Assembly: GCF_014352875.1 (NCBI RefSeq)
Contig: NZ_CP060695.1
Location: 3,379,501-3,443,500 of the forward strand
Direction of reading: 5' to 3'
DNA: 64,000 bases
From: Polaribacter pectinis
GTDB lineage: Bacteria > Bacteroidota > Bacteroidia > Flavobacteriales > Flavobacteriaceae
Position 1 is the stretch's first letter, and every line of letters begins with the position of its first letter. This document shows positions 39,921 through 50,734 of this stretch, piece by piece. The notes under the pieces are model-generated. The model was not told the origin of the DNA, searched no databases, and saw only the letters and a list, made by a program, of their open reading frames with translations. Made by a program: the position numbers and the translations under genes.

Positions 39921-39963
39921 TGACAAATATCATTTTAAAAACAGAGGTTTTAATGTTATTTTG
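39921..39963 (+). promoter_or_regulatory. FNR-like operator and -7 element upstream of the persulfide dioxygenase
   Basis: TGACAAATATCA (39921-39932) has FNR-like half sites TGAC and ATCA separated by 4 bases. It is followed by the -7-like TTATTTTG (39956-39963, one mismatch to TAnnTTTG). The operator centre (39926.5) is 36.5 bases from the final G, the same distance as at the other two sites (44112 and 48286). Confidence 0.65.
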
Positions 39964-39990
39964 AAGTTGGTTAGAAGACAAAAATATAGA

Positions 39991-41397
39991 ATGATAATAG
40001 AACAAATTTATACAGGTTGCTTAGCTCAAGGAGCTTATTATATAGAAAGTAATGGCGAAGTTGCAATTATAGATCCATTAAGAGAAGTACAAGATTATAT
40101 CGATAGAGCAGAAAATAACAATGCGAAAATTAAATATATTTTCGAAACACATTTTCATGCAGATTTTGTGAGTGGACATGTTACGTTAGCAGAAAAAACA
40201 GGCGCAAAAATAGTCTATGGACCAACAGCAAAAACTAGCTTCGATGCAATAATAGCAGAAGATAATCAAGTTTTTAAAGTTGGCGATATTACGATAACAC
40301 TTTTACATACTCCAGGTCATACAATGGAAAGCTCTTGTTACTTGTTAAAAGATGAAAACGGAAAAGATCACGCTCTTTTTAGCGGAGATACTTTATTTTT
40401 AGGAGACGTTGGTAGACCAGATTTAGCACAAAAAGGAGATATTACAGAAAAAGATTTGGCAGGTTTTTTATTTGATAGTTTAAGAAATAAAGTAATGCCT
40501 TTGGCAGATGATGTAATTGTATATCCAGCTCATGGAGCAGGTTCTGCTTGTGGTAAAAATTTAAGCAAAGAAACTGTAGGTACAATTGGCAATCAAAAAG
40601 AAACCAATTATGCATTAAGAGCAGACATGACAAAAGAGGAATTTGTAAAAGAAGTTACAGATGGTTTATTACCACCACCAGCTTATTTCCCTTTAAATGT
40701 TCAAATGAATAAAGAAGGTTATCAAGATATAGAAGATGTTATCAAAAATAGTGCAAAACCATTATCTGTTAATGATTTTGAAATTATAGCAAATGAAACT
40801 GATGCTATTATTTTAGATGTAAGACATCAATCAGAATTTATAAAAGGTTTTATTCCACAATCTATTTTTATTGGAGTCGATGGAGGTTTTGCACCTTGGG
40901 TTGGCGCTTTAATAAAAGATACAAAACAACCAATTTTGTTAGTTTCGGAAAATGGTAGAGAAGAAGAAGTAATTACTAGACTTTCTAGAGTTGGTTTCGA
41001 TAATGTTCTAGGTTATTTAGAAGGAAGTTTCGACTCATGGAAAAAAAACGATAAAGAATACGATACTTTAGAATCTGTTTCTGTAGATGTTTTAGAAGAA
41101 AAAATTAAAGAAAAAGCATTAGTTTTCGATGTAAGAAAACCAGGTGAATATGCAAGCGAACATATAAAAGTAGCAGAAAGTACGCCATTAGATTTCTTAA
41201 ATAAACATATTTCTGATTTTCCAAAGAAGCAAGAATTTTATGTGCATTGTGCGGGAGGTTATCGTTCTGTAATTGCAGCATCTATTTTAAAGGCTAGAGG
41301 ATTTCATAATGTTATAGATGTTGCAGGAGGTTATGCAGCAATTAGAAATACAAATATCGAGAGAACAGATGCAGTTTGTCCATCAACCTTAAAATAG
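39991..41397 (+). CDS. persulfide dioxygenase-like MBL-fold protein with two rhodanese domains
   Basis: The ATG at 39991 (MIIEQIYTGCLAQG) is used, giving 468 aa. The upstream TTG at 39961 lies on the -7 element. Residues 1-235 are an ETHE1-type metallo-beta-lactamase fold with H54-F-H56-A-D58, LLHTPGHTMESSCYL, FSGDTLFLGDVGRPDL and VYPAHGAGSACGKN, as expected for a mononuclear iron persulfide dioxygenase. A first rhodanese domain (about 260-350) has no cysteine at its active-site loop (VSENGREE) and is inactive. The second (about 365-460) has the intact loop C420-AGGYRS. The predicted role is oxidation of glutathione- or protein-bound persulfide to sulfite, with sulfur transfer by the last domain. 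Confidence 0.9.
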   Translation: MIIEQIYTGCLAQGAYYIESNGEVAIIDPLREVQDYIDRAENNNAKIKYIFETHFHADFVSGHVTLAEKTGAKIVYGPTAKTSFDAIIAEDNQVFKVGDITITLLHTPGHTMESSCYLLKDENGKDHALFSGDTLFLGDVGRPDLAQKGDITEKDLAGFLFDSLRNKVMPLADDVIVYPAHGAGSACGKNLSKETVGTIGNQKETNYALRADMTKEEFVKEVTDGLLPPPAYFPLNVQMNKEGYQDIEDVIKNSAKPLSVNDFEIIANETDAIILDVRHQSEFIKGFIPQSIFIGVDGGFAPWVGALIKDTKQPILLVSENGREEEVITRLSRVGFDNVLGYLEGSFDSWKKNDKEYDTLESVSVDVLEEKIKEKALVFDVRKPGEYASEHIKVAESTPLDFLNKHISDFPKKQEFYVHCAGGYRSVIAASILKARGFHNVIDVAGGYAAIRNTNIERTDAVCPSTLK

Positions 41398-41398
41398 T

Positions 41399-41764
41399 AT
41401 GAGAAAATTTCTATACGTCTTTGTTATAAGTTTCTTTTTTATAAATTGTGATAAAAACCAAACTTTAGAAACAATAACAACAGCGGAATTAAAAACACTA
41501 TTAAGCAAAAAGAAAATTCAATTAATAGATGTTAGAACACCACAAGAAATAAAAGAAGGTTTTATCGCAACAGCCATATTTGCCAATTATTTTGAAGATG
41601 ATTTTGCTGAAAAAGCAATACGTAAATTAGATAAAGATAAACCAGTTTATTTGATTTGTAGAAGTGGTAATAGAAGTGAAAAAGCTGCCTTAATATTAAA
41701 AGAAAAAGGGTATAATGTAATAAATGTTTCTGGCGGATACAACCAATGGAAAAAAGAAAATTAA
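41399..41764 (+). CDS. rhodanese-like lipoprotein
   Basis: The 121-aa protein starts with a lipoprotein signal (MRKFLYVFVISFFFINC, lipidation at C17). It contains one rhodanese domain with the active-site loop C87-RSGNRS and the C-terminal GGYNQWKK typical of single-domain sulfurtransferases. It would act in the periplasm on sulfane sulfur released outside the cytoplasm. It begins 1 base after the persulfide dioxygenase stop and ends just before the HMA gene, forming a compact three-gene sulfur operon. Confidence 0.9.
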   Translation: MRKFLYVFVISFFFINCDKNQTLETITTAELKTLLSKKKIQLIDVRTPQEIKEGFIATAIFANYFEDDFAEKAIRKLDKDKPVYLICRSGNRSEKAALILKEKGYNVINVSGGYNQWKKEN

Positions 41765-41769
41765 TTAAA

Positions 41770-42036
41770 ATGAAAACAGATATACAAATAGAAAATTTAA
41801 AATGTGGTGGTTGTGCAGCAACTATTAAAAAGGGGTTATTAAGTTTAGAAAACGTAAGTGAAGTAGAAATAGATATTGAGAATTCAATTGTTTCTGTAAC
41901 TTCAACTGATAGTTCTACAGAACAAATAAAAGAAAAACTTTCTAAATTAGGTTACCCAGAAGTTGGAGATAAAAATACAATTGTTCACAAAGCAAAATCT
42001 TTTGTAAGTTGTGCAGTTGGTAGAATTGATTCTTAA
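41770..42036 (+). CDS. HMA-domain protein (metal- or persulfide-binding CxxC)
   Basis: The 88-aa protein is a single heavy-metal-associated domain: beta-alpha-beta-beta-alpha-beta with C12-GGC15 in the loop where copper chaperones have CxxC (ENLKCGGCAATI). The C-terminus carries one more Cys (SFVSCAVG). I choose the ATG at 41770, after the rhodanese stop, over the overlapping one at 41746. Position in the sulfur operon suggests either copper handling under sulfide stress or a sulfane-sulfur carrier. The former is the family norm. Confidence 0.86.
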   Translation: MKTDIQIENLKCGGCAATIKKGLLSLENVSEVEIDIENSIVSVTSTDSSTEQIKEKLSKLGYPEVGDKNTIVHKAKSFVSCAVGRIDS

Positions 42037-42060
42037 TTTTTTTTAAGATATAACTATTTA

Positions 42061-42090
42061 AAGCGAACATTTTATGTTCGCTTTTTTTAT
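42061..42090 (+). terminator. intrinsic terminator of the sulfur operon
   Basis: AAGCGAACAT (42061-42070) and ATGTTCGCTT (42074-42083) form a perfect 10-bp stem with a 3-base loop and a T run after it. It is 24 bases after the HMA stop and before the hflX promoter. Confidence 0.92.
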
Positions 42091-42135
42091 AAATTCAAAT
42101 TAGAAAATTTGATATTATTAAAACAAATTTGTTCG

Positions 42136-42143
42136 TACTTTTG
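42136..42143 (+). promoter_or_regulatory. -7 element immediately before hflX
   Basis: TACTTTTG is a perfect TAnnTTTG. Its G at 42143 is 7 bases before the hflX ATG at 42150, so the transcript would be leaderless or nearly so. The nearest TTG (42109-42111) is 24 bases upstream, longer than the usual spacer. Confidence 0.55.
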
Positions 42144-42149
42144 TATTCT

Positions 42150-43358
42150 ATGATAGATTCAAAAGAAGCCATTTCAGAAAAAGCCGTTTTAATCGGTATA
42201 ATTACTCAAAATCAAGATGAAACTCAATCTGAAGAATTTTTAGATGAGTTAGAATTCTTAACAACAACTGCAGGTGGAGTTGCTGTAAAACGTTTTACCC
42301 AAAAGTTAGAAAGACCAAACCCTAAAACATTTTTAGGAACAGGAAAATTAGAAGAGGTAAAACAGTTTATAGAAACCAAAAATATTGGTACCGCTATTTT
42401 TGATGATGAATTATCGCCAGCGCAATTAAGAAATATCGAAAAGATTCTTGATTGTAAAATCTTGGATAGAACCAATCTAATACTTGATATTTTTGCACAA
42501 AGAGCACAATCTAGTTCTGCAAAAACACAAGTAGAATTAGCCCAACATCAATATTTATTGCCACGTTTAACCCGACTTTGGACGCACCTTGACAAGCAAA
42601 AAGGGGGAATTGGAATGCGTGGACCTGGAGAAACAGAAATTGAAACGGATAGGCGTATTATTAACGATAGAATCGTGCTTCTAAAAAAGAAGTTGCTTAC
42701 TATTGATAAACAAATGGCAACCCAACGTAAAAATCGTGGGAAAATAGTTCGTGTCGCTTTAGTTGGTTATACAAACGTTGGTAAATCTACGTTGATGAAC
42801 GTAATAAGTAAAAGTGATGTTTTTGCTGAAAACAAACTCTTTGCTACATTAGATACAACCGTTAGAAAAGTGGTTATTAAGAACATTCCTTTTTTAATGA
42901 CAGACACAGTTGGTTTTATTAGAAAACTACCAACTCAATTGGTAGAATCTTTTAAATCTACATTAGATGAGGTTCGTGAAGCAGATTTATTATTACATGT
43001 TGTAGATATTTCTCACCCAAATTTTGAAGATCATATTGCATCTGTAAATACCATTTTAGATGATATTAAATGTGCAGACAAGCCTACATTAATGGTTTTT
43101 AATAAGATTGATGCTTATTCTCATGAAACAATCGATGAAGATGATTTAGTTTCAGAAAAGACAAAAGAACATTATACATTACAAGATTGGAAAAAAACTT
43201 GGATGAACGATAAAGAGGTTTCATCTATATTTATTTCTGCCTTAAACAAAGAGAATTTAGAAGATTTTAAAGAAGAAGTGTACGAAGAAGTAAAGAAAAT
43301 TCACATTCAGCGTTTTCCTTACAACGATTTTTTATATTATGAATATAAAGAAGAATAG
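42150..43358 (+). CDS. hflX: ribosome-associated GTPase HflX
   Basis: The 402-aa GTPase rescues stalled or stressed ribosomes by splitting 70S particles. The HflX N-terminal domain is shown by RPNPKTFLGTGKLEE and DDELSPAQLRNIEK, followed by the coiled linker GGIGMRGPGETEIETDRR. The G domain contains VALVGYTNVGKST (G1), DTVGFIRKLPTQLVESFKST (G3 region) and NKID (G4). The start is the ATG at 42150, next to the -7 element, rather than the TTG at 42129 that would overlap the promoter. It is a single-gene unit, and the regulator gene that follows is convergent. Confidence 0.96.
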   Translation: MIDSKEAISEKAVLIGIITQNQDETQSEEFLDELEFLTTTAGGVAVKRFTQKLERPNPKTFLGTGKLEEVKQFIETKNIGTAIFDDELSPAQLRNIEKILDCKILDRTNLILDIFAQRAQSSSAKTQVELAQHQYLLPRLTRLWTHLDKQKGGIGMRGPGETEIETDRRIINDRIVLLKKKLLTIDKQMATQRKNRGKIVRVALVGYTNVGKSTLMNVISKSDVFAENKLFATLDTTVRKVVIKNIPFLMTDTVGFIRKLPTQLVESFKSTLDEVREADLLLHVVDISHPNFEDHIASVNTILDDIKCADKPTLMVFNKIDAYSHETIDEDDLVSEKTKEHYTLQDWKKTWMNDKEVSSIFISALNKENLEDFKEEVYEEVKKIHIQRFPYNDFLYYEYKEE

Positions 43359-43383
43359 TAATAATTAGAAAACTTTTTAAGCT

Positions 43384-44070
43384 TTAAAAGCCTTGTGCAA
43401 TTTTTTCTAAAGCTGATTCATCTAAAATTTTGATTTCTTTCCCACGAAATTCAATAATTTGTTTCTTCTTTAATTCAGACAATAAACGAATTGCAGATTC
43501 AGTTGCAGTTCCAATAATATTAGCGATGTCTTCTCTAGAAAGCTGAACATCTATTATACCATCTTCGTTAAGATCAAACCTTTCTTTTAGGTTTATAAGA
43601 GTTTCTGCTAAACGTTGTTTTACGGTTTTTTGAGCCATATCTACAATAACATTATCTGCAGATTTAAGCATGCTAGCCATATTTTTTAAAACTGCCATTG
43701 TAAAGTCAGGGTTTTTTTCTAAATCTTTAATTATTTCTTCTTTTGGAACAAAACAAATCTCCATATCACTTAAAGCAACAGCTTTTAAGTTTGCAACTTC
43801 ATCAGAAACTAAACTTCTTTCACCTAATATATCGCCTCTTTTTACTAAACTAATAATTTGATTTCTTCCATTCTCGCTCATTTTTGAGACTTTACAAACA
43901 CCGTTTTTTATACAGAAGACACCATTTAAATGCTCACCTTCTTCAAAAATAGATTCTCCTTTTTTAATAACCAAAGAAGTTTTACAAGCAGAAATACGCA
44001 ATAGTTCATCTTTAGAAAGATGTTTTAAAGTGTTAAATTGACGAACAATACACTGTTCACATTTGCTCAT
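43384..44070 (-). CDS. Crp/Fnr family transcription regulator (FNR-like)
   Basis: The 228-aa regulator has an N-terminal C4-x2-C7 pair, a cyclic-nucleotide-binding-like barrel (about 20-130), a dimerisation helix and a winged helix with recognition segment ATESAIRLLSELKK (E191, I194, R195). FNR uses E-x2-S-R there, so the Ser is replaced by Ile. C106 in DMEICFVP aligns by eye with FNR C122, while C29 lies later than the third FNR cysteine, leaving an atypical cluster set. It lies divergent from ccoI and 4.3 kb from ccoS-ccoNO. FNR-like operators precede both. It is a candidate for the oxygen-responsive activator of this region. Confidence 0.88.
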   Translation of the reverse strand: MSKCEQCIVRQFNTLKHLSKDELLRISACKTSLVIKKGESIFEEGEHLNGVFCIKNGVCKVSKMSENGRNQIISLVKRGDILGERSLVSDEVANLKAVALSDMEICFVPKEEIIKDLEKNPDFTMAVLKNMASMLKSADNVIVDMAQKTVKQRLAETLINLKERFDLNEDGIIDVQLSREDIANIIGTATESAIRLLSELKKKQIIEFRGKEIKILDESALEKIAQGF

Positions 44071-44090
44071 AATAGTTAGAAATAGTTAGT
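44071..44090. repeat. tandem 10-base repeat in the regulator's leader
   Basis: AATAGTTAGA is followed directly by AATAGTTAGT, a direct repeat with one mismatch. It occupies the first 20 bases upstream of the regulator's ATG, where ribosome binding would occur. Confidence 0.6.
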
Positions 44091-44094
44091 AACT

Positions 44095-44102
44095 CAAATA
44101 TA
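44095..44102 (-). promoter_or_regulatory. -7 element of the Crp/Fnr regulator gene
   Basis: TATATTTG on the minus strand is a perfect TAnnTTTG, 24 bases before the regulator start. The FNR-like operator at 44112-44123 has its centre 22.5 bases from the element's G, which would put a bound regulator over the region contacted by polymerase and suggests autorepression. Confidence 0.6.
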
Positions 44103-44111
44103 TTAAAAAAC

Positions 44112-44154
44112 TGACAATTATCATGTTTTAAATTGCTTTCTTAACGGAAATTTG
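44112..44154 (+). promoter_or_regulatory. FNR-like operator and -7 element upstream of ccoI
   Basis: TGACAATTATCA (44112-44123) is followed by GAAATTTG (44147-44154), one mismatch from TAnnTTTG. The operator centre is 36.5 bases from the final G. The reverse complement of the operator is identical over 12 bases to the operator at 48286-48297. No TTG -33 box is present at the normal position, as expected if an activator replaces it. Confidence 0.7.
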
Positions 44155-44174
44155 CAATAGGCAAAAGAGTAAAT

Positions 44175-46550
44175 ATGAAATCTACACAATGTTACCACTG
44201 TGGCGATTCTTGTGATGACAATAGCATTAAATTTGATGAAAAAAACTTCTGTTGTAATGGTTGTAAGACTGTTTATGAGATTTTTTCGGAGAACGATTTA
44301 ACTTGTTACTACAATTTTCAAGACAATCCAGGAGCAATTCCCGCTGAAATTCAGGGGAAATATGACTTCTTGGACAACAAAGAAATTGCGGAAAAGTTAT
44401 TAGATTTTTCAGATGGTAATCTTCACATTACAACATTATATATTCCACACATACATTGTAGTTCTTGTATTTGGGTTTTAGAGAATTTACATAAATTAAA
44501 TGAGAAAATATCTTCTTCTCAAGTAGATTTTCCAAAAAAAACAGTTAGAATCACTTATAATTCAGAAACAACTTCTCTTAAAGAAATTGTACTCTTATTA
44601 AGTTCAATTGGCTATGAACCATATATTAGTTTAGAAGATTACGAAGCTGGAAAAAAAGCAGTAGATAGAAGCTTAACTTATAAGTTAGGAATTGCAGGTT
44701 TTGCGTTTGGAAACGTAATGTTTCTCTCATTTCCAGAATATTTTCAGGTGGATGGTTTTTGGATAGAAAAATATAAAAATATCTTTAGATGGTTAATGTT
44801 TTTCTTTTCTTTACCAGTAGTTTTTTATGCAGGGAAAGACTATTTTATTTCAGCTTATAAAGGTTTACGCTCTAAGATTTTAAATATTGATGTTCCTATT
44901 GCACTTGGAATATCTGTGTTATTTATAAGAAGTTCTGTAGAAATTATTTTCGATTTAGGAACCGGTTTTTTTGACAGTTTAACAGGTTTGGTTTTCTTTT
45001 TATTATTAGGGAAATTTTTTCAGCAGAAAACGTATAATTTTTTGTCTTTCGAACGAGATTATAAATCTTATTTTCCAATTGCAGTTACTAGAATTTCATC
45101 CAAAGGAAAAGAAGAAAATGTACAAATTTATGACATTGAAAAAGGAAACAGATTATTAATTAGAAACCAAGAATTAATTCCTGTAGATGGAATTTTAATC
45201 AATGGAAATGCAGAAATAGATTACAGTTTTGTTACTGGTGAAGCAAATGCAGTCCATAAAAAATCTGGAGATAAACTATTTGCAGGAGGAAAACAATTAT
45301 CTGGAGTGATAGAAATGGAAGTTTTGTCTTCTGTCTCGCAAAGTTATTTAACTCAATTGTGGAGTAACGATGTTTTTCAGAAAGACAACAAATCTCCTTT
45401 TAAAACTATTACAGATAACATCAGTAAAAACTTTACTATTGCTGTTTTGTTAATTGCATTTCTTTCTACTGCTTATTGGTTGTTTTTTGATGCCAGTAAA
45501 GCTTTAAATGTTTTTACAGCTGTTTTAATTATTGCTTGTCCTTGTGCAATTGCTTTGGCTGCACCTTTCACTTTGGGAAATATGCTACGTATTTTTGGAA
45601 AACAGAAATTCTATTTAAAAAACGCCACTGTAATTGAGCAATTAGCAAAAATAGATACACTAATTTTCGATAAAACAGGAACCTTAACTACCAACAAAGA
45701 AAGTAAAATTAACTATGAGGGTATTGCCTTAAATCAGCAAGAAAAAAGCATTTTAAAAAGTGCTTTAAGGGCTTCAAATCATCCTTTAAGCAGAACTTTG
45801 TATACTACTTTTAATGAGGTTGAAAACCTTGCTATTACTGATTATAATGAAGTTGTAGGGAAAGGAATTGCTGCAAATTATCAAGAAAATATCATAAAAT
45901 TAGGATCTGCATTTTTTGTAAATAATAATAACGAAAAAGTAACTTTAGACACTGCTGTTCACGTAAGTTTTAATGATGAGTACAAAGGGAAATTCATTTT
46001 TAAAAATGCGTATAGAAAAGGTGTGAAGGCATTGTTTTCATCTTTAGAGAAAACTTATAATTTATCAGTTGTTTCAGGAGATAATGAAGGAGAAAAAACA
46101 TATTTACAAGAAAATTTACCTGAAGGAACGAATTTGTTATTCAATCAAAAACCCGAAGATAAATTAGAGGTTGTTGCGAAACTTCAAAAAGAAAATAAAA
46201 AAGTGGCCATGATTGGCGATGGTTTAAATGATGCTGGTGCTTTGGCACAAAGTGATGTTGGTATAGCTTTATCAGAAAATATAAACGTTTTTTCTCCTGC
46301 TTGTGATGGAATTTTAGATGCAGAAAAATTTAATAAAATAGGAACTTATATAAACGCATCTAAAAAGGCAATCAAAATTATAAAATATTGTTTTATTCTC
46401 TCTTTATGCTATAATGTAGTTGGATTGTATTTTGCAGTTACAGGACAATTAATGCCAGTTATTGCAGCGATTTTAATGCCATTAAGTTCTATAAGTATTG
46501 TCGTTTTTACAACGATTTCAACAAATATACTAGGTAATAAAATAAAATAA
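44175..46550 (+). CDS. ccoI: Cu+ exporting P-type ATPase CcoI for cbb3 oxidase assembly
   Basis: The 791-aa P1B ATPase has an N-terminal cysteine-rich metal-binding domain (CYHCGDSC, FCCNGC), then an HMA domain in which the usual CxxC is CSSCIW, as in CcoI/FixI. Membrane segments surround the CPC ion motif (C455-P-C457, followed by AIALAAPF). The phosphorylation site is D499-KTGT and the hinge motif is MIGDGLNDAGAL. It moves copper toward the periplasm for the CuB site of cbb3 oxidase. It starts 104 bases from the divergent regulator and is followed after 5 bases by the cupin gene. Confidence 0.94.
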   Translation: MKSTQCYHCGDSCDDNSIKFDEKNFCCNGCKTVYEIFSENDLTCYYNFQDNPGAIPAEIQGKYDFLDNKEIAEKLLDFSDGNLHITTLYIPHIHCSSCIWVLENLHKLNEKISSSQVDFPKKTVRITYNSETTSLKEIVLLLSSIGYEPYISLEDYEAGKKAVDRSLTYKLGIAGFAFGNVMFLSFPEYFQVDGFWIEKYKNIFRWLMFFFSLPVVFYAGKDYFISAYKGLRSKILNIDVPIALGISVLFIRSSVEIIFDLGTGFFDSLTGLVFFLLLGKFFQQKTYNFLSFERDYKSYFPIAVTRISSKGKEENVQIYDIEKGNRLLIRNQELIPVDGILINGNAEIDYSFVTGEANAVHKKSGDKLFAGGKQLSGVIEMEVLSSVSQSYLTQLWSNDVFQKDNKSPFKTITDNISKNFTIAVLLIAFLSTAYWLFFDASKALNVFTAVLIIACPCAIALAAPFTLGNMLRIFGKQKFYLKNATVIEQLAKIDTLIFDKTGTLTTNKESKINYEGIALNQQEKSILKSALRASNHPLSRTLYTTFNEVENLAITDYNEVVGKGIAANYQENIIKLGSAFFVNNNNEKVTLDTAVHVSFNDEYKGKFIFKNAYRKGVKALFSSLEKTYNLSVVSGDNEGEKTYLQENLPEGTNLLFNQKPEDKLEVVAKLQKENKKVAMIGDGLNDAGALAQSDVGIALSENINVFSPACDGILDAEKFNKIGTYINASKKAIKIIKYCFILSLCYNVVGLYFAVTGQLMPVIAAILMPLSSISIVVFTTISTNILGNKIK

Positions 46551-46555
46551 AGTTT

Positions 46556-46891
46556 ATGAATATAGCCTCTTTTTTAGAAGATATAAAGTACAGTGAAGAT
46601 AAGCCAGCATTGTCTCTTTTGTTAGATACAGATTTCTCTAAAGAAATAAGAATTGTTTTTAAGAAAGGGCAAACGATGGAAGATCACCAAGCACCATTTG
46701 CAATAATTGTACATATTGTTGAAGGAATTATCGATTTTGGAGTAGATGGAGAGGTAAGAAGATTAACTTCTGGGCATATTCTCTCTTTAAAACCACATGA
46801 GATTCATAATTTAACAGCAGTTGAAAACAGTATTGTGCGTTTGTCTTTATCGAAAACCGACAGTGTAAAACGCGTTAAAGAAGTATTATAG
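46556..46891 (+). CDS. small cupin-domain protein in the ccoI-hemN operon
   Basis: The 111-aa single-domain cupin has motif 1-like residues around GQTMEDHQAPFAIIVHIVEG. The usual second histidine is replaced, and only the pattern HQAPF...H remains. Motif 2 is SGHILSLKPHEIHNLTA. It therefore has enough His/Asp residues for one metal, but not the standard HxH(x)4E set. The function is unknown. Its position between the copper pump and HemN, separated by only 5 and 2 bases, links it to cbb3 or heme synthesis under low oxygen. A heme-, iron- or redox-sensing role is possible but not shown. Confidence 0.82.
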   Translation: MNIASFLEDIKYSEDKPALSLLLDTDFSKEIRIVFKKGQTMEDHQAPFAIIVHIVEGIIDFGVDGEVRRLTSGHILSLKPHEIHNLTAVENSIVRLSLSKTDSVKRVKEVL

Positions 46892-46893
46892 TT

Positions 46894-48258
46894 ATGAAAA
46901 AATCACTAATTCAGAAATACAATATTCCAGGACCAAGATATACCAGTTATCCAACAGTTCCTTATTGGAATAAAGAAGGAATAGACAAACAAGATTGGAT
47001 TGCTTCTTTTCAAAAATCGTTTATAGAGAGCAATTATTCAGAAGGAATTAGCATTTATATTCATTTGCCTTTTTGCGAGAGTTTGTGTACGTTTTGTGCC
47101 TGTCATAAACACATTACAAAACGTCATGAAGTGGAAGAAGAATATATAGAAACTGTTTTAAAAGAATGGAAATTATATGTTGCTTTAGTAGATGAAAAAC
47201 CAATTATTAAAGAGTTACATTTAGGAGGAGGAACACCTACTTTTTTCTCCAAAGAAAACTTAAAATATTTAATGGATGGTATTTTTTCAATTGCTGAAAA
47301 ACATCCAGATCACGAGTTTAGTTTTGAAGGTCATCCAAATAATACAACCAAAGAACAATTACAAACATTGTTCGATTGTGGGTTTACTAGAGTTAGTTTT
47401 GGAGTGCAAGATTATAATGAAAAAGTACAAAAATCGATTCATAGAATTCAGCCTTTTGAAGCTGTAGAACAAGTAACAAAATGGTCAAGAGAAATTGGCT
47501 ACGATTCTGTGAGTCACGATTTAATTTTTGGCTTGCCATTTCAAACGAAGGAAGCTGTAATTCATACCATTAATAAAACGAAAGAATTACAACCAGATAG
47601 AATTTCATTTTACAGTTATGCTCATGTTCCTTGGGTAAAAGGAGTAGGTCAAAGAGGTTTTAATGAAGACGATTTACCAAAGAATGACGAAAAAAGAGAG
47701 TTATACGAAATCGGAAAAGAATTGTTCGCAGAATTAGGCTACGAAGAAATAGGAATGGATCATTTTGCGTTAAAGACAGATAGTTTGTATGAAGCAACTA
47801 TCAACAAAACAATCCATAGAAATTTTATGGGGTATACAGCTAACAAAACTTTATTAATGGTCGGTTTGGGTATGTCTGCAATTTCTGATTCTTGGTACGC
47901 ATTTGCGCAGAATGTAAAGACAGTTAAGGAATATCAAAAATTAGTAAATGAAGGTGAAATTCCAATTTTTAGAGGACATTTATTATCCGAAGAAGATAGA
48001 ATTATGAGAAAACATATTTTAAATATGATGTGTAATTTCACTACTTCTTGGGAAGCAGACCATATGAAAATAAAGAATGTAGAAAAACATTTAAAGTTGT
48101 TAGAAGAAATGGAGAAAGATGGTTTGGTTGAGGTTTATGAGAATTCGCTTTCAATTCCAGAAAAAGCAAGACCTTATGTTCGTAACATTTGTATGGCTTT
48201 CGATCTTCATTTATTAGAAAACAAACCAAAAACACAATTATTTTCGATGACTATTTAG
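46894..48258 (+). CDS. hemN: oxygen-independent coproporphyrinogen III oxidase
   Basis: The 454-aa radical SAM enzyme converts coproporphyrinogen III to protoporphyrinogen IX without oxygen. The radical SAM motif C61-x3-C65-x2-C68 (CESLCTFC), with an extra C70, is followed by GGGTPTF and the HemN-typical EGHPNN segment, then SFGVQDYNEKVQKSIHRIQP. YTANKTLLMVGLGMSAIS in the C-terminal half is also HemN-like, unlike HemW. It is placed behind ccoI and before ccoS-ccoNO, so low-oxygen heme supply and cbb3 biogenesis are controlled together. Confidence 0.95.
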   Translation: MKKSLIQKYNIPGPRYTSYPTVPYWNKEGIDKQDWIASFQKSFIESNYSEGISIYIHLPFCESLCTFCACHKHITKRHEVEEEYIETVLKEWKLYVALVDEKPIIKELHLGGGTPTFFSKENLKYLMDGIFSIAEKHPDHEFSFEGHPNNTTKEQLQTLFDCGFTRVSFGVQDYNEKVQKSIHRIQPFEAVEQVTKWSREIGYDSVSHDLIFGLPFQTKEAVIHTINKTKELQPDRISFYSYAHVPWVKGVGQRGFNEDDLPKNDEKRELYEIGKELFAELGYEEIGMDHFALKTDSLYEATINKTIHRNFMGYTANKTLLMVGLGMSAISDSWYAFAQNVKTVKEYQKLVNEGEIPIFRGHLLSEEDRIMRKHILNMMCNFTTSWEADHMKIKNVEKHLKLLEEMEKDGLVEVYENSLSIPEKARPYVRNICMAFDLHLLENKPKTQLFSMTI

Positions 48259-48285
48259 ATTTTTTTAACAAAAAATTAGGAAATA

Positions 48286-48328
48286 TGATAATTGTCATAT
48301 TTTGAATAACAAATCAATATTATTTTTG
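48286..48328 (+). promoter_or_regulatory. FNR-like operator and promoter of ccoS-ccoNOQP
   Basis: TGATAATTGTCA (48286-48297), extended to ATGATAATTGTCAT, lies upstream of a perfect -7 element TATTTTTG (48321-48328). The centre-to-G distance is 36.5 bases, as at the sites near 39926 and 44117. The ccoS ATG is 24 bases downstream. Confidence 0.75.
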
Positions 48329-48351: not shown

Positions 48352-48528
48352 ATGAGCGTAATATACCTACTACTTTCACTAAGTATTTTAGTGGCAATTG
48401 TATTCTTTATCGCATTTATTTATTCAGTAAAACAAGGGCAGTATGATGATTCATATACGCCATCTGTTCGTATGCTATTTGATGATGAACTTGTAAAAGA
48501 AAAACCAAAAAAATTAACTAAAGATTAA
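48352..48528 (+). CDS. ccoS: cbb3 oxidase assembly protein CcoS
   Basis: This 58-aa protein is too short for most gene finders. It starts with one hydrophobic helix (MSVIYLLLSLSILVAIVFFIAF), followed by IYSVKQGQYDD and a charged tail ending in KPKKLTKD. The motif W/YSVKxGQYDD after the helix is the CcoS signature. CcoS is needed for loading heme and copper into the oxidase. It is the first gene after the FNR-like promoter and ends 10 bases before ccoNO. Confidence 0.9.
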   Translation: MSVIYLLLSLSILVAIVFFIAFIYSVKQGQYDDSYTPSVRMLFDDELVKEKPKKLTKD

Positions 48529-48538
48529 ATATTAAATT

Positions 48539-50734
48539 ATGGAAATGCAACAATTTTATTACGATAATAAAATCGTAAAAAAATTCATCTACGCAACCCT
48601 ATTATGGGGAATTGTGGGGTTCTCTGTGGGGTTATTATTGGCAACAATGTTTTTATTCCCGAATTTAACAGACGGGATTTCGTGGTTAAGTTTTGGGCGT
48701 TTAAGACCACTACATACCAATGCAGTTATTTTTGCCTTTGTAGGTAATGCAATTTATGCGGGTGTTTATTATTCGCTTCAAAGATTGCTAAAAGCTAGAA
48801 TGGCAAGTAACTTTTTAAGTAATTTTAACTTTTGGGGTTGGCAAGCAATTATTGTTGCAGCCGCAATAACACTGCCATTAGGATATACATCTTCTAAAGA
48901 ATATGCAGAATTAGAATGGCCAATTGATATTGCCATTGCTTTAGTTTGGGTTGCCTTTGGAGCTAATATGATTTGGACAATTCTTCAAAGAAGACAACGT
49001 CATTTGTATGTTGCAATTTGGTTCTATTTAGGAACATTTGTAACTGTTGCAGTTTTACATATATTTAATAGTTTAGCATTACCAGTTGGTTTCTTAAAAT
49101 CATATTCTGTTTACGCAGGAGTTCAAGATGCACTGGTACAATGGTGGTATGGACATAATGCCGTAGCATTTTTCTTAACAACACCATTTTTAGGGTTAAT
49201 GTATTATTTTGTACCAAAAGCAGCAAACAGACCTGTATATTCTTACAGACTTTCTATTGTTCATTTTTGGTCTTTAATCTTTATTTACATCTGGGCTGGA
49301 CCTCACCATTTATTATACACATCTTTACCAGAATGGGCACAAAATCTAGGAGTTGCCTTTTCTGTAATGCTTTTAGCACCTTCTTGGGGAGGAATGATAA
49401 ATGGATTATTAACTTTACGTGGAGCTTGGGATAAAGTTAGAACAGATCCTGTTTTAAAGTTTATGGTTGTAGCCATTACCGGTTATGGTATGGCAACTTT
49501 TGAAGGCCCATTATTATCTTTAAAAAATGTAAATGCAATTGCGCATTTTAGTGACTGGATTATTGCACACGTTCATGTTGGAGCATTGGCTTGGAACGGG
49601 TTTTTAGCTTTTGGTATGTTATATTGGATGATACCAAGATTATTTAAAACAAAATTATATTCTATAGCATTAGCAAACGTCCATTTCTGGATAGGAACAT
49701 TAGGAATCATTTTATATGCATTACCAATGTATGTTGCAGGTTTTGTTCAAGCTTCTATGTGGAAACAATTTAACCCAGACGGTTCTTTAACCTATGGAAA
49801 TTTCTTGGAAACAGTAAATGAAATTATTCCAATGTATTGGATGCGTGCAATTGGGGGTAGTTTATACATCCTTGGTGCATTTGTAATGTTATACAATGTA
49901 ATAAGAACTGTAAGATCAGGAAGTGCAGTTACAGATGAATTAGCAGAAGCTCCGGCTTTAACAAAAGTTTCTAAATATAGAACCAAAGGAGAAGGATGGC
50001 ATACTTGGTTAGAAAGAAAACCTGTTAAATTAACAGTTTATGCAACCATTGCTATTTTAATAGGGGGAGCAGTACAAATTATACCTACAATATTAGTGAA
50101 ATCTAACATACCAACAATTAGTAGCGTAAAGCCTTATACACCTTTAGAGTTAGAAGGTAGAGATCTTTACATTAGAGAAGGTTGTGTGGGTTGTCACTCT
50201 CAAATGGTAAGACCATTTAGAAGTGAAGTAGAACGTTATGGAGAGTATTCTAAAGCAGGAGAATTTGTTTACGATCATCCTTTTTTATGGGGAAGTAAAC
50301 GTACTGGACCAGATTTGCATAGAGTTGGTCAAAAATATAACGATAGTTGGCACTTAAATCACATGTATGATCCGCAAAGTACGTCACCTGGTTCAATTAT
50401 GCCGTCATACAAATGGTTAGTTTCAAGTGAATTGGATAAGTCTTCAACTGAAGATAAGATGGAGGTTATGGTTTCTTTAGGTGTTCCATATACGGAGGAA
50501 GAAATTGCAAACGCACAACAACACATGTTAGAGCAAGGAACCAAAATTGAAGAAAACCTTTATGGAGACCCAGATTTTGCTAAAACTTATGATGCTGATA
50601 AAAAGTATGCAGAAGAAAATGGTGAAGCTTTTATAGAAATGAAGAACAGAGAAATTGTAGCACTTATAGCATACATTCAACGTTTGGGAACAGATATTAA
50701 AGTAAAAGACGAACAGAAAACCGCTAAAAATTAG
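48539..50734 (+). CDS. ccoN: cbb3 cytochrome c oxidase subunits I and II fused (CcoN-CcoO)
   Basis: The 731-aa protein joins the catalytic subunit to the monoheme cytochrome subunit. Residues 1-490 are CcoN with 12 or more helices and conserved histidines (LRPLHTNAVIF, WWYGHNAVAFFLT, GPHHLLYT, FSDWIIAHVHVGALAWNG). After a further helix (residues 500-520) the CcoO domain begins (TPLELEGRDLYIREGC), with C549-VGC-H553 followed by QMVRPF and a C-terminal amphipathic segment. Fusion of these two subunits is known in Bacteroidota. It reduces oxygen with high affinity. It is translated right after ccoS and before ccoQ. Confidence 0.96.
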   Translation: MEMQQFYYDNKIVKKFIYATLLWGIVGFSVGLLLATMFLFPNLTDGISWLSFGRLRPLHTNAVIFAFVGNAIYAGVYYSLQRLLKARMASNFLSNFNFWGWQAIIVAAAITLPLGYTSSKEYAELEWPIDIAIALVWVAFGANMIWTILQRRQRHLYVAIWFYLGTFVTVAVLHIFNSLALPVGFLKSYSVYAGVQDALVQWWYGHNAVAFFLTTPFLGLMYYFVPKAANRPVYSYRLSIVHFWSLIFIYIWAGPHHLLYTSLPEWAQNLGVAFSVMLLAPSWGGMINGLLTLRGAWDKVRTDPVLKFMVVAITGYGMATFEGPLLSLKNVNAIAHFSDWIIAHVHVGALAWNGFLAFGMLYWMIPRLFKTKLYSIALANVHFWIGTLGIILYALPMYVAGFVQASMWKQFNPDGSLTYGNFLETVNEIIPMYWMRAIGGSLYILGAFVMLYNVIRTVRSGSAVTDELAEAPALTKVSKYRTKGEGWHTWLERKPVKLTVYATIAILIGGAVQIIPTILVKSNIPTISSVKPYTPLELEGRDLYIREGCVGCHSQMVRPFRSEVERYGEYSKAGEFVYDHPFLWGSKRTGPDLHRVGQKYNDSWHLNHMYDPQSTSPGSIMPSYKWLVSSELDKSSTEDKMEVMVSLGVPYTEEEIANAQQHMLEQGTKIEENLYGDPDFAKTYDADKKYAEENGEAFIEMKNREIVALIAYIQRLGTDIKVKDEQKTAKN

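Follow-up and report, generated by a model that had tools for sequence, protein, structure and literature searches.

Within the 64,000 bp window of the Polaribacter pectinis genome analysed here, three units read on the forward strand are each preceded by an FNR-like operator. The first unit begins with a gene for a persulfide dioxygenase (PDO)-rhodanese fusion (39991-41397), whose presumed activity follows from a metallo-beta-lactamase domain and two rhodanese stretches; a gene for a rhodanese-domain protein comes next (41399-41764) and one for a small HMA-domain (CopZ-like) protein is last (41770-42036). The second consists of a P-type ATPase gene with metal-binding N-terminal domains, named ccoI by its place (44175-46550), a gene for a small cupin-like protein (46556-46891) and hemN, coding for oxygen-independent coproporphyrinogen III oxidase (46894-48258). 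The third starts with ccoS (48352-48528) and the ccoN-ccoO fusion of a cbb3 oxidase (48539-50734), with ccoP/G/H-like genes, named by position and appearance, downstream. On the reverse strand and divergent from ccoI is a gene for an FNR-like member of the CRP/FNR family (43384-44070), the proposed activator.

The operators are TGACAAATATCA at 39921-39932, 13 bp past the sulP stop codon and ahead of the PDO unit, TGACAATTATCA at 44112-44123 between the regulator gene and ccoI, and TGATAATTGTCA at 48286-48297 ahead of the cco operon, all on the forward strand. TGACAATTATCA and TGATAATTGTCA are reverse complements, and TGACAAATATCA differs from TGACAATTATCA at one base. A -7-like box follows each of them: that of the cco operon, TATTTTTG (48321-48328), matches TAnnTTTG in full, and those of the PDO unit, TTATTTTG (39956-39963), and ccoI, GAAATTTG (44147-44154), have one mismatch each, all again on the forward strand. 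The final G of the box (39963, 44154 and 48328) is 36.5 bp from the operator centre in all three cases, and inspection of the three promoters finds no TTG at -33, that of cco having one at about -31 to -29 instead. An earlier reading of this DNA (the original prediction) had given these operator coordinates, their reverse complementarity, the constant spacing and the lack of the usual -33 element, and re-reading of the sequence finds it exact in each respect, although two of the boxes are imperfect. In class-II activation by FNR the operator is positioned at -41.5. The flavobacterial sigma-A box is reported to occupy -12 to -5 (PMC9723704). With the box there and the spacing constant, the predicted operator centre falls at -41.5 in all three promoters, the class-II position. 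These features support one predicted class-II activator site of CRP/FNR type ahead of each of the three units.

Operators matching TGAYN4RTCA are called class A below, those matching GTAACN4GTTAC class B, and Nx is the number of bases between operator and TTTG or TTTR; the control for motif counts is the reversed pattern. The bare class A motif shows no enrichment in the window (4 occurrences against 3.69 expected) and hardly any in the whole genome (169 against 150 for the reversed pattern). Joined to TTTG at N26-28 it occurs 26 times in this genome against 8 in the control, and at exactly N27 17 times against 4. A scan for the motif at a fixed distance from the box had been proposed as a check on the original prediction, and across the 58 genomes sampled from the GTDB genus, a set that also includes Tenacibaculum species, the motif with TTTG at N27 is found 823 times against 175, with 52 of the 58 genomes exceeding their own control. 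The signal is therefore carried by the spacing and not by the motif alone. At 12 of the 26 N26-28 places the site falls on a reading frame of 70 residues or more, and many of those 12 probably arose by chance.

Two of the three sites are widely conserved. The site between the regulator gene and ccoI is kept at all 31 genus loci and at 26 of 28 loci examined outside the genus among the best-scoring ones of the family sample of 149 Flavobacteriaceae genomes. TTTG follows it at N27 in 28 of the genus loci and at N28 in three, and at N27 in 25 and N26 in one of the 26 other family sites. The cco site is kept at each of the 30 genus loci examined, always at N27 from TAnnTTTG; the outer base pair of its operator consensus is A...T and the inner TGAYN4RTCA is conserved. 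Around both sites the neighbouring sequence varies in large part while the sites stay, which is strong evidence that the ccoI and cco sites are functional. The PDO operator TGACAAATATCA is also the one seen most often between the regulator gene and ccoI, where it accounts for nine of the 31 genus and six of the 26 family sites. The regulator gene is present in 42 of the 58 genus genomes and 91 of the 149 family genomes, and ccoN in 43 of the 58. Spaced sites number 16.7 per genome (control 3.3) where the genus genomes have the regulator and 7.7 (control 2.3) in the 16 that lack it, a difference that is support and not proof since many of the latter are small or incomplete. Of the 123 hits in these 16, 66 come from three genomes that have ccoN (G156, G175 and G181); no ccoI match is found in the stretch fetched around ccoN of G181. 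Natural losses also occur, the regulator and ccoN genes of genome G163 both being interrupted.

Elsewhere in this genome, sites with the same spacing point to a wider regulon. A single operator flanked by one box at N27 and another, on its other side, at N28 is situated between a gene for a copper nitrite reductase (NirK) fused to cytochrome c and an Rrf2-like gene (Rrf2 by appearance), another site precedes a porin-like gene (by appearance) followed by nrfH and nrfA, and a further one is ahead of pta-ackA. Spaced sites also lie ahead of desaturase-like, FAD-reductase-like and CBS-domain-like genes, all named by appearance. The content of this predicted regulon (cbb3, HemN, NirK, NrfHA and Pta-AckA) fits low oxygen, and in Flavobacterium psychrophilum cbb3 and heme-synthesis genes are reported to be induced by oxygen limitation (PMC9723704). 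The single activator of three units envisaged in the original prediction thus gains support from the sites and the divergent CRP/FNR gene, and the predicted regulon extends beyond them to nirK, nrfHA and pta-ackA. We note that near the nirK fusion (L341:2673-6385) a globin-like gene is present, as is a cupin gene that looks like the one separating ccoI from hemN (both by appearance).

The product of the gene at 43384-44070 scores above the cut-offs of PF00027, PF13545 and PF00325, and this pairing of a cNMP-binding-type sensor domain with a Crp-type helix-turn-helix places it in the CRP/FNR superfamily. Of five AlphaFold2 models the best has a mean pLDDT of 81.8 (the others 76.5 to 49.5); it matches 2gau, CRP and FNR structures, with 2gau of Porphyromonas gingivalis as the best match; because the fold matches CRP as well as FNR, it does not settle the sensor type. 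The cluster cysteines of Escherichia coli FNR are C20, C23, C29 and C122. C4, C7 and C106 of the regulator align with three of these and are invariant in 59 orthologues, in which the additional C29 and C53 are also invariant and C59 is kept in 58. The protein falls below the cut-offs of the Fnr model PRK11161 (94.2 of 228 bits) and of the FixK and FnrL NCBIfam models (64.5 and 77.2 of 300 bits), and the canonical FNR operator TTGATN4ATCAA is not matched, its outer T not being conserved. Identity with canonical [4Fe-4S] FNR was rejected on these grounds: three of four cluster cysteines only, a score below the PRK11161 cut-off and different outer operator bases. The regulator may work like FNR; because one canonical cluster cysteine is lacking, we only infer that oxygen is its signal. 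Recognition-helix residues E191 and R195, corresponding by manual alignment to E181 and R185 of CRP, are kept in all 59 orthologues, and the regulator perhaps also controls its own gene.

A more varied picture is seen at the PDO promoter. PDO is present in 55 of the 58 genus genomes, of which 49 upstream regions were classed; four were left out, that of G131 entered the family counts, and that of locus L111, read by eye outside the 49, has no site. Class B in these counts allows one mismatch, and the genus, family and named sets partly overlap. The class A motif is at the same place in 16 of the 49 genus upstreams: 12 have it with TTTR at N27 (nine TTTG, three TTTA), and L091, L094, L100 and L106 have it with a weaker box. 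Class B with TTTR occurs in two (L134, exact, and L107, one mismatch), and 31 have neither class; in a subset of 20 PDO upstreams, 19 have neither. Among 29 family upstreams class A is found once (in L055, within GTGACAAATGTCAC, which fits both classes), class B 13 times and neither 15 times, and among 80 named upstreams the counts are 7, 34 and 39. Sixty letter shuffles of each set gave a mean of at most 0.03, and none of the 60 gave class A with TTTR at N27 in the genus set. The named class A cases include Polaribacter septentrionalilitoris, Polaribacter marinus, Tenacibaculum haliotis and Cellulophaga fucicola. Possible intermediate operators are seen at the PDO class-II position, GTGACAAATGTCAC in L055 and GTAATAAATGTTAC in L107. 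In the named Tenacibaculum loci, T. haliotis excepted, about 15-30 bp separate the end of the sulP match from PDO. For loci of this type a promoter ahead of sulP was considered and discarded: in L202-L213 and L215 the 260 bp before sulP contain no class A or B site. In fourteen other loci class B sites are present in that interval, seven of them with TTTR at N26.

A quick, unrooted tree of 142 different PDO proteins contains a group of 30 rows with 99% support, identified as Polaribacter by its named member, in which 17 rows have class A, one is B-like and 12 have neither. The distribution of the two classes on the tree needs four changes, at least three of them forced by well-supported branches; as the tree is unrooted, the B-to-A direction is not proven. 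The class A site at PDO is thus real but lineage-specific, a trait of one Polaribacter clade that was often lost inside it, with scattered cases elsewhere. The original prediction named conservation of the sites in close relatives as a test, and in the loci examined the ccoI and cco sites pass it, the PDO site being lineage-limited. The proposed tie between PDO and cbb3 accordingly narrows to that clade and a few further cases, and many other genera carry class B in its place.

A candidate for the protein that binds class B is a second CRP/FNR-type regulator of about 210 residues, here called the B-regulator. Its gene is present in all six named PDO flanks inspected, which were hand-chosen, two of them because the regulator query matched there, and in five it is within about 3.2 kb upstream of PDO. 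The copy at L225:8430-9062 has PF00027 and PF13545, and around the gene in several flanks are TauE/SafE-like, SQR-like, YeeE-like or cydAB-like genes (by appearance). The gene occurs in 124 of the 149 family genomes (E up to 1e-30) and 47 of the 58 genus genomes (E up to 1e-15; one only weakly). The copy of this genome, L335:8486-9118 (G000:C1:2958485-2959117), has 64% identity; one class B palindrome, which overlaps the stop codon of the B-regulator gene, lies ahead of a cytochrome c-thioredoxin-TPMT-cydAB cluster, and another, likewise exact, ahead of the next gene group. Class B with TTTG at N25-27 occurs 306 times against 61 in the control in the 149 family genomes, at least once in 109 of them, and at PDO the class B site has the same geometry as class A. 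By manual alignment the B-regulator has Val at CRP position 181 in 28 of 30 rows, whereas the regulator of the window has Glu in 59 of 59, so that the operator difference goes with a protein difference; the cysteines of its motif GDTCAMTLSCC are likewise present in 28 of 30 rows (the two deviating rows are probably misread, and L331 was left out). The published HcpR2 consensus, GTAACnnnnGTTAC, is tied to loss of Glu at this position (PMC1274295). Given its genomic linkage and recognition helix, the B-regulator probably binds GTAACN4GTTAC, and it is possibly a dedicated sulfur/redox regulator of Flavobacteriaceae; we saw no description of it in the open-licence literature searched. Just upstream of its gene in this genome, a very short predicted membrane protein is preceded by a class A operator with TTTG at N27 (L335:8178-8189).

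A plausible scenario, which we regard as likely from the sequence comparisons, is that the three sites are class-II operators, centred at -41.5, of the regulator encoded at 43384-44070. At low oxygen a dimer of this regulator would bind TGAYN4RTCA, substitute for the lacking -33 element and recruit sigma-A RNA polymerase to the TAnnTTTG-like box, turning on the cbb3 oxidase (ccoS-NO...), the CcoI-type ATPase and HemN here and nitrite reduction and acetate formation elsewhere in the genome. In one Polaribacter clade the PDO unit would have been drawn into the regulon by acquiring this regulator's operator at its promoter, and most other relatives with a recognisable PDO site have GTAACN4GTTAC, probably for the B-regulator, whose gene is beside the cydAB cluster in this genome. 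The operator class at PDO differs between lineages at constant geometry, and the gene thus appears to have changed its controlling switch by replacement of one operator by another. Persulfides arise from sulfide, a poison of heme-copper oxidases, and PDO consumes O2 in clearing them; coupling to cbb3 could protect the oxidase at an oxic-sulfidic boundary. A fuller version, which we offer tentatively and with slightly less than even confidence, is that the PDO promoter is a fixed class-II frame with an exchanged operator, served in many genera by an HcpR2-like regulator linked to sulfur-handling and cytochrome bd genes and in Polaribacter by the FNR-like one linked to cbb3, with L055 and L107 as possible intermediates, and that the FNR-like regulator senses O2 through a rearranged set of C4, C7, C106 and one or more of C29, C53 and C59.

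Several observations weigh against this scenario. The third FNR cluster cysteine is absent from the regulator, with N13 in its place. Genome G156 has no regulator beside ccoI and G175 has a 57-residue match to it, and both keep cco and the sites. Of the 30 rows that make up the Polaribacter clade, 12 lack the PDO site and one more is B-like, and several such genomes keep the regulator; among PDO upstreams outside the clade, roughly half show neither class (39 of 80 named, 15 of 29 family). By hand count the regulator is present in 15 of the 16 site-bearing clade genomes (in one of them, G163, with a stop) versus 8 of the 14 site-less ones, several of which are incomplete. Joint loss of regulator and PDO site within the clade was considered and rejected, the hand count being too weak and confounded by incomplete genomes. 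PDO gene order also differs between genera, so that loss and regain of a site is as possible as point conversion.

Other explanations fit parts of the same evidence. Chance likeness of the three sites in an A+T-rich genome would agree with the frequency of the bare motif, which matches chance in the window and nearly does genome-wide, but it is refuted for cco and ccoI by the conservation of their sites and is unlikely for PDO, where the motif recurs at one place among the genus upstreams; with the spacing enrichment added, we regard it as highly improbable. The sites could instead be real and the signal be NO, persulfide or sulfide, or thiol redox, with a DNR/NnrR/HcpR-type or thiol-based sensor in the place of an oxygen sensor. 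NirK, NrfHA and the Rrf2-like gene in the predicted regulon, the missing cluster cysteine, the extra C29, C53 and C59, and a persulfide-consuming enzyme among the targets would all suit such a signal, but C4, C7 and C106 align with FNR cluster cysteines and oxygen limitation is a reported inducer of cbb3 and heme-synthesis genes in a related genus (PMC9723704), and we consider this reading unlikely, though the most serious competitor.

It is also conceivable that the PDO site is used by another CRP/FNR protein, the B-regulator or a paralogue, which would leave PDO outside the cbb3 regulon. The geometry of class B sites at PDO is identical, the B-regulator persists in this genome, and some genus genomes have further, weaker relatives of it. 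However, two exact GTAACN4GTTAC sites remain by the B-regulator gene cluster in this genome, TGACAAATATCA is the operator most often found at the ccoI/regulator place, and genomes G160, G162 and G182 have class A at PDO with no B-regulator match (E up to 1e-15). Use by another protein consequently seems to us less probable still than a signal other than oxygen, and we prefer the reading in which the regulator beside ccoI acts, in response to low oxygen, at all three units.

CcoN, CcoO and CcoS models all score above cut-off (PRK14485, TIGR00780 and TIGR00781 for the ccoN-ccoO fusion, TIGR00847 for ccoS), which identifies a cbb3 oxidase operon, and hemN passes TIGR00538. The ATPase passes TIGR01494, PF12156 and PF00403, with the heavy-metal model TIGR01525 just under its cut-off (344.6 of 346.25 bits), and the cupin-like protein passes AraC_binding and fails Cupin_2. 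PDB entries 3tp9 and 3r2u match the PDO-rhodanese fusion over nearly its entire length, and in its order of a metallo-beta-lactamase domain and then two rhodanese-like stretches it has the architecture of the CstB type of persulfide dioxygenase/sulfurtransferase; the NCBIfam Blh model scores it below cut-off (61.7 of 625 bits). The best named relatives are from Polaribacter septentrionalilitoris for PDO (89% identity) and Polaribacter cellanae for the regulator (86%). The small HMA gene has a tblastn match in 43 of the 159 PDO loci searched (its own included, some flanks being short), and its presence in the PDO unit suggests that this unit is connected through copper with the CcoI-type ATPase and cbb3.

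Among characterised regulators, FNR of E. coli and Aliivibrio fischeri shares with the regulator described here the CRP/FNR fold, three aligned cluster cysteines, the class-II position (predicted here) and a low-oxygen target set, but differs in the third cluster cysteine (N13 here), the extra C29, C53 and C59, the model score, the outer T of TTGAT and the residue at FNR S212, which is Ile here. Low-oxygen control of cbb3 and hemN by a CRP/FNR protein is already known in Proteobacteria, and FixK/FnrL-type activators likewise govern the cbb3 operon, hemN and cco assembly genes, in many alphaproteobacteria from a gene that adjoins its cbb3 targets (PMC2908626); the present regulator is of another subfamily, with Bacteroidota-type sigma-A boxes and with PDO among its predicted targets. 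For Bacteroidota we saw no description of such a low-oxygen CRP/FNR regulon in the open-licence literature searched. A metatranscriptome study gave a Flavobacteriales CRP/FNR homologue, which need not be the present one, a place near MalR and the role of carbon sensor (PMC8510549).

For the B-regulator the closest parallel is HcpR2 (Rodionov 2005, PMC1274295), whose palindrome is also found before PDO in many other Flavobacteriaceae and which, like the B-regulator, is without Glu181. The published regulons of most Bacteroides species consist of hcp only (PMC1274295), whereas the class B sites seen here precede PDO, sulP and, in this genome, the cydAB cluster; most HcpR2 proteins have Pro at position 181 and the B-regulator has Val. 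What the comparison provides is a defined operator with its spacing, a candidate regulator, and a case of promoter rewiring where the operators belong to different classes yet occupy the same position. It also raises the testable question of why an O2-consuming persulfide enzyme is coupled to cbb3 in a single genus and, in its relatives, to a different regulator. In the open-licence literature searched we noticed no paper that ties an FNR-type regulator to persulfide dioxygenase: the portion of PMC12170894 consulted handles the two separately, and that of PMC12856154 names no transcriptional regulator of its pdo gene. Elsewhere persulfide dioxygenases are controlled by sulfur-sensing regulators of the ArsR family, such as BigR and SqrR, or of the Fis family, such as FisR (PMC12170894), whereas the candidate in this Polaribacter clade is a CRP/FNR-type protein shared with the cbb3 oxidase.

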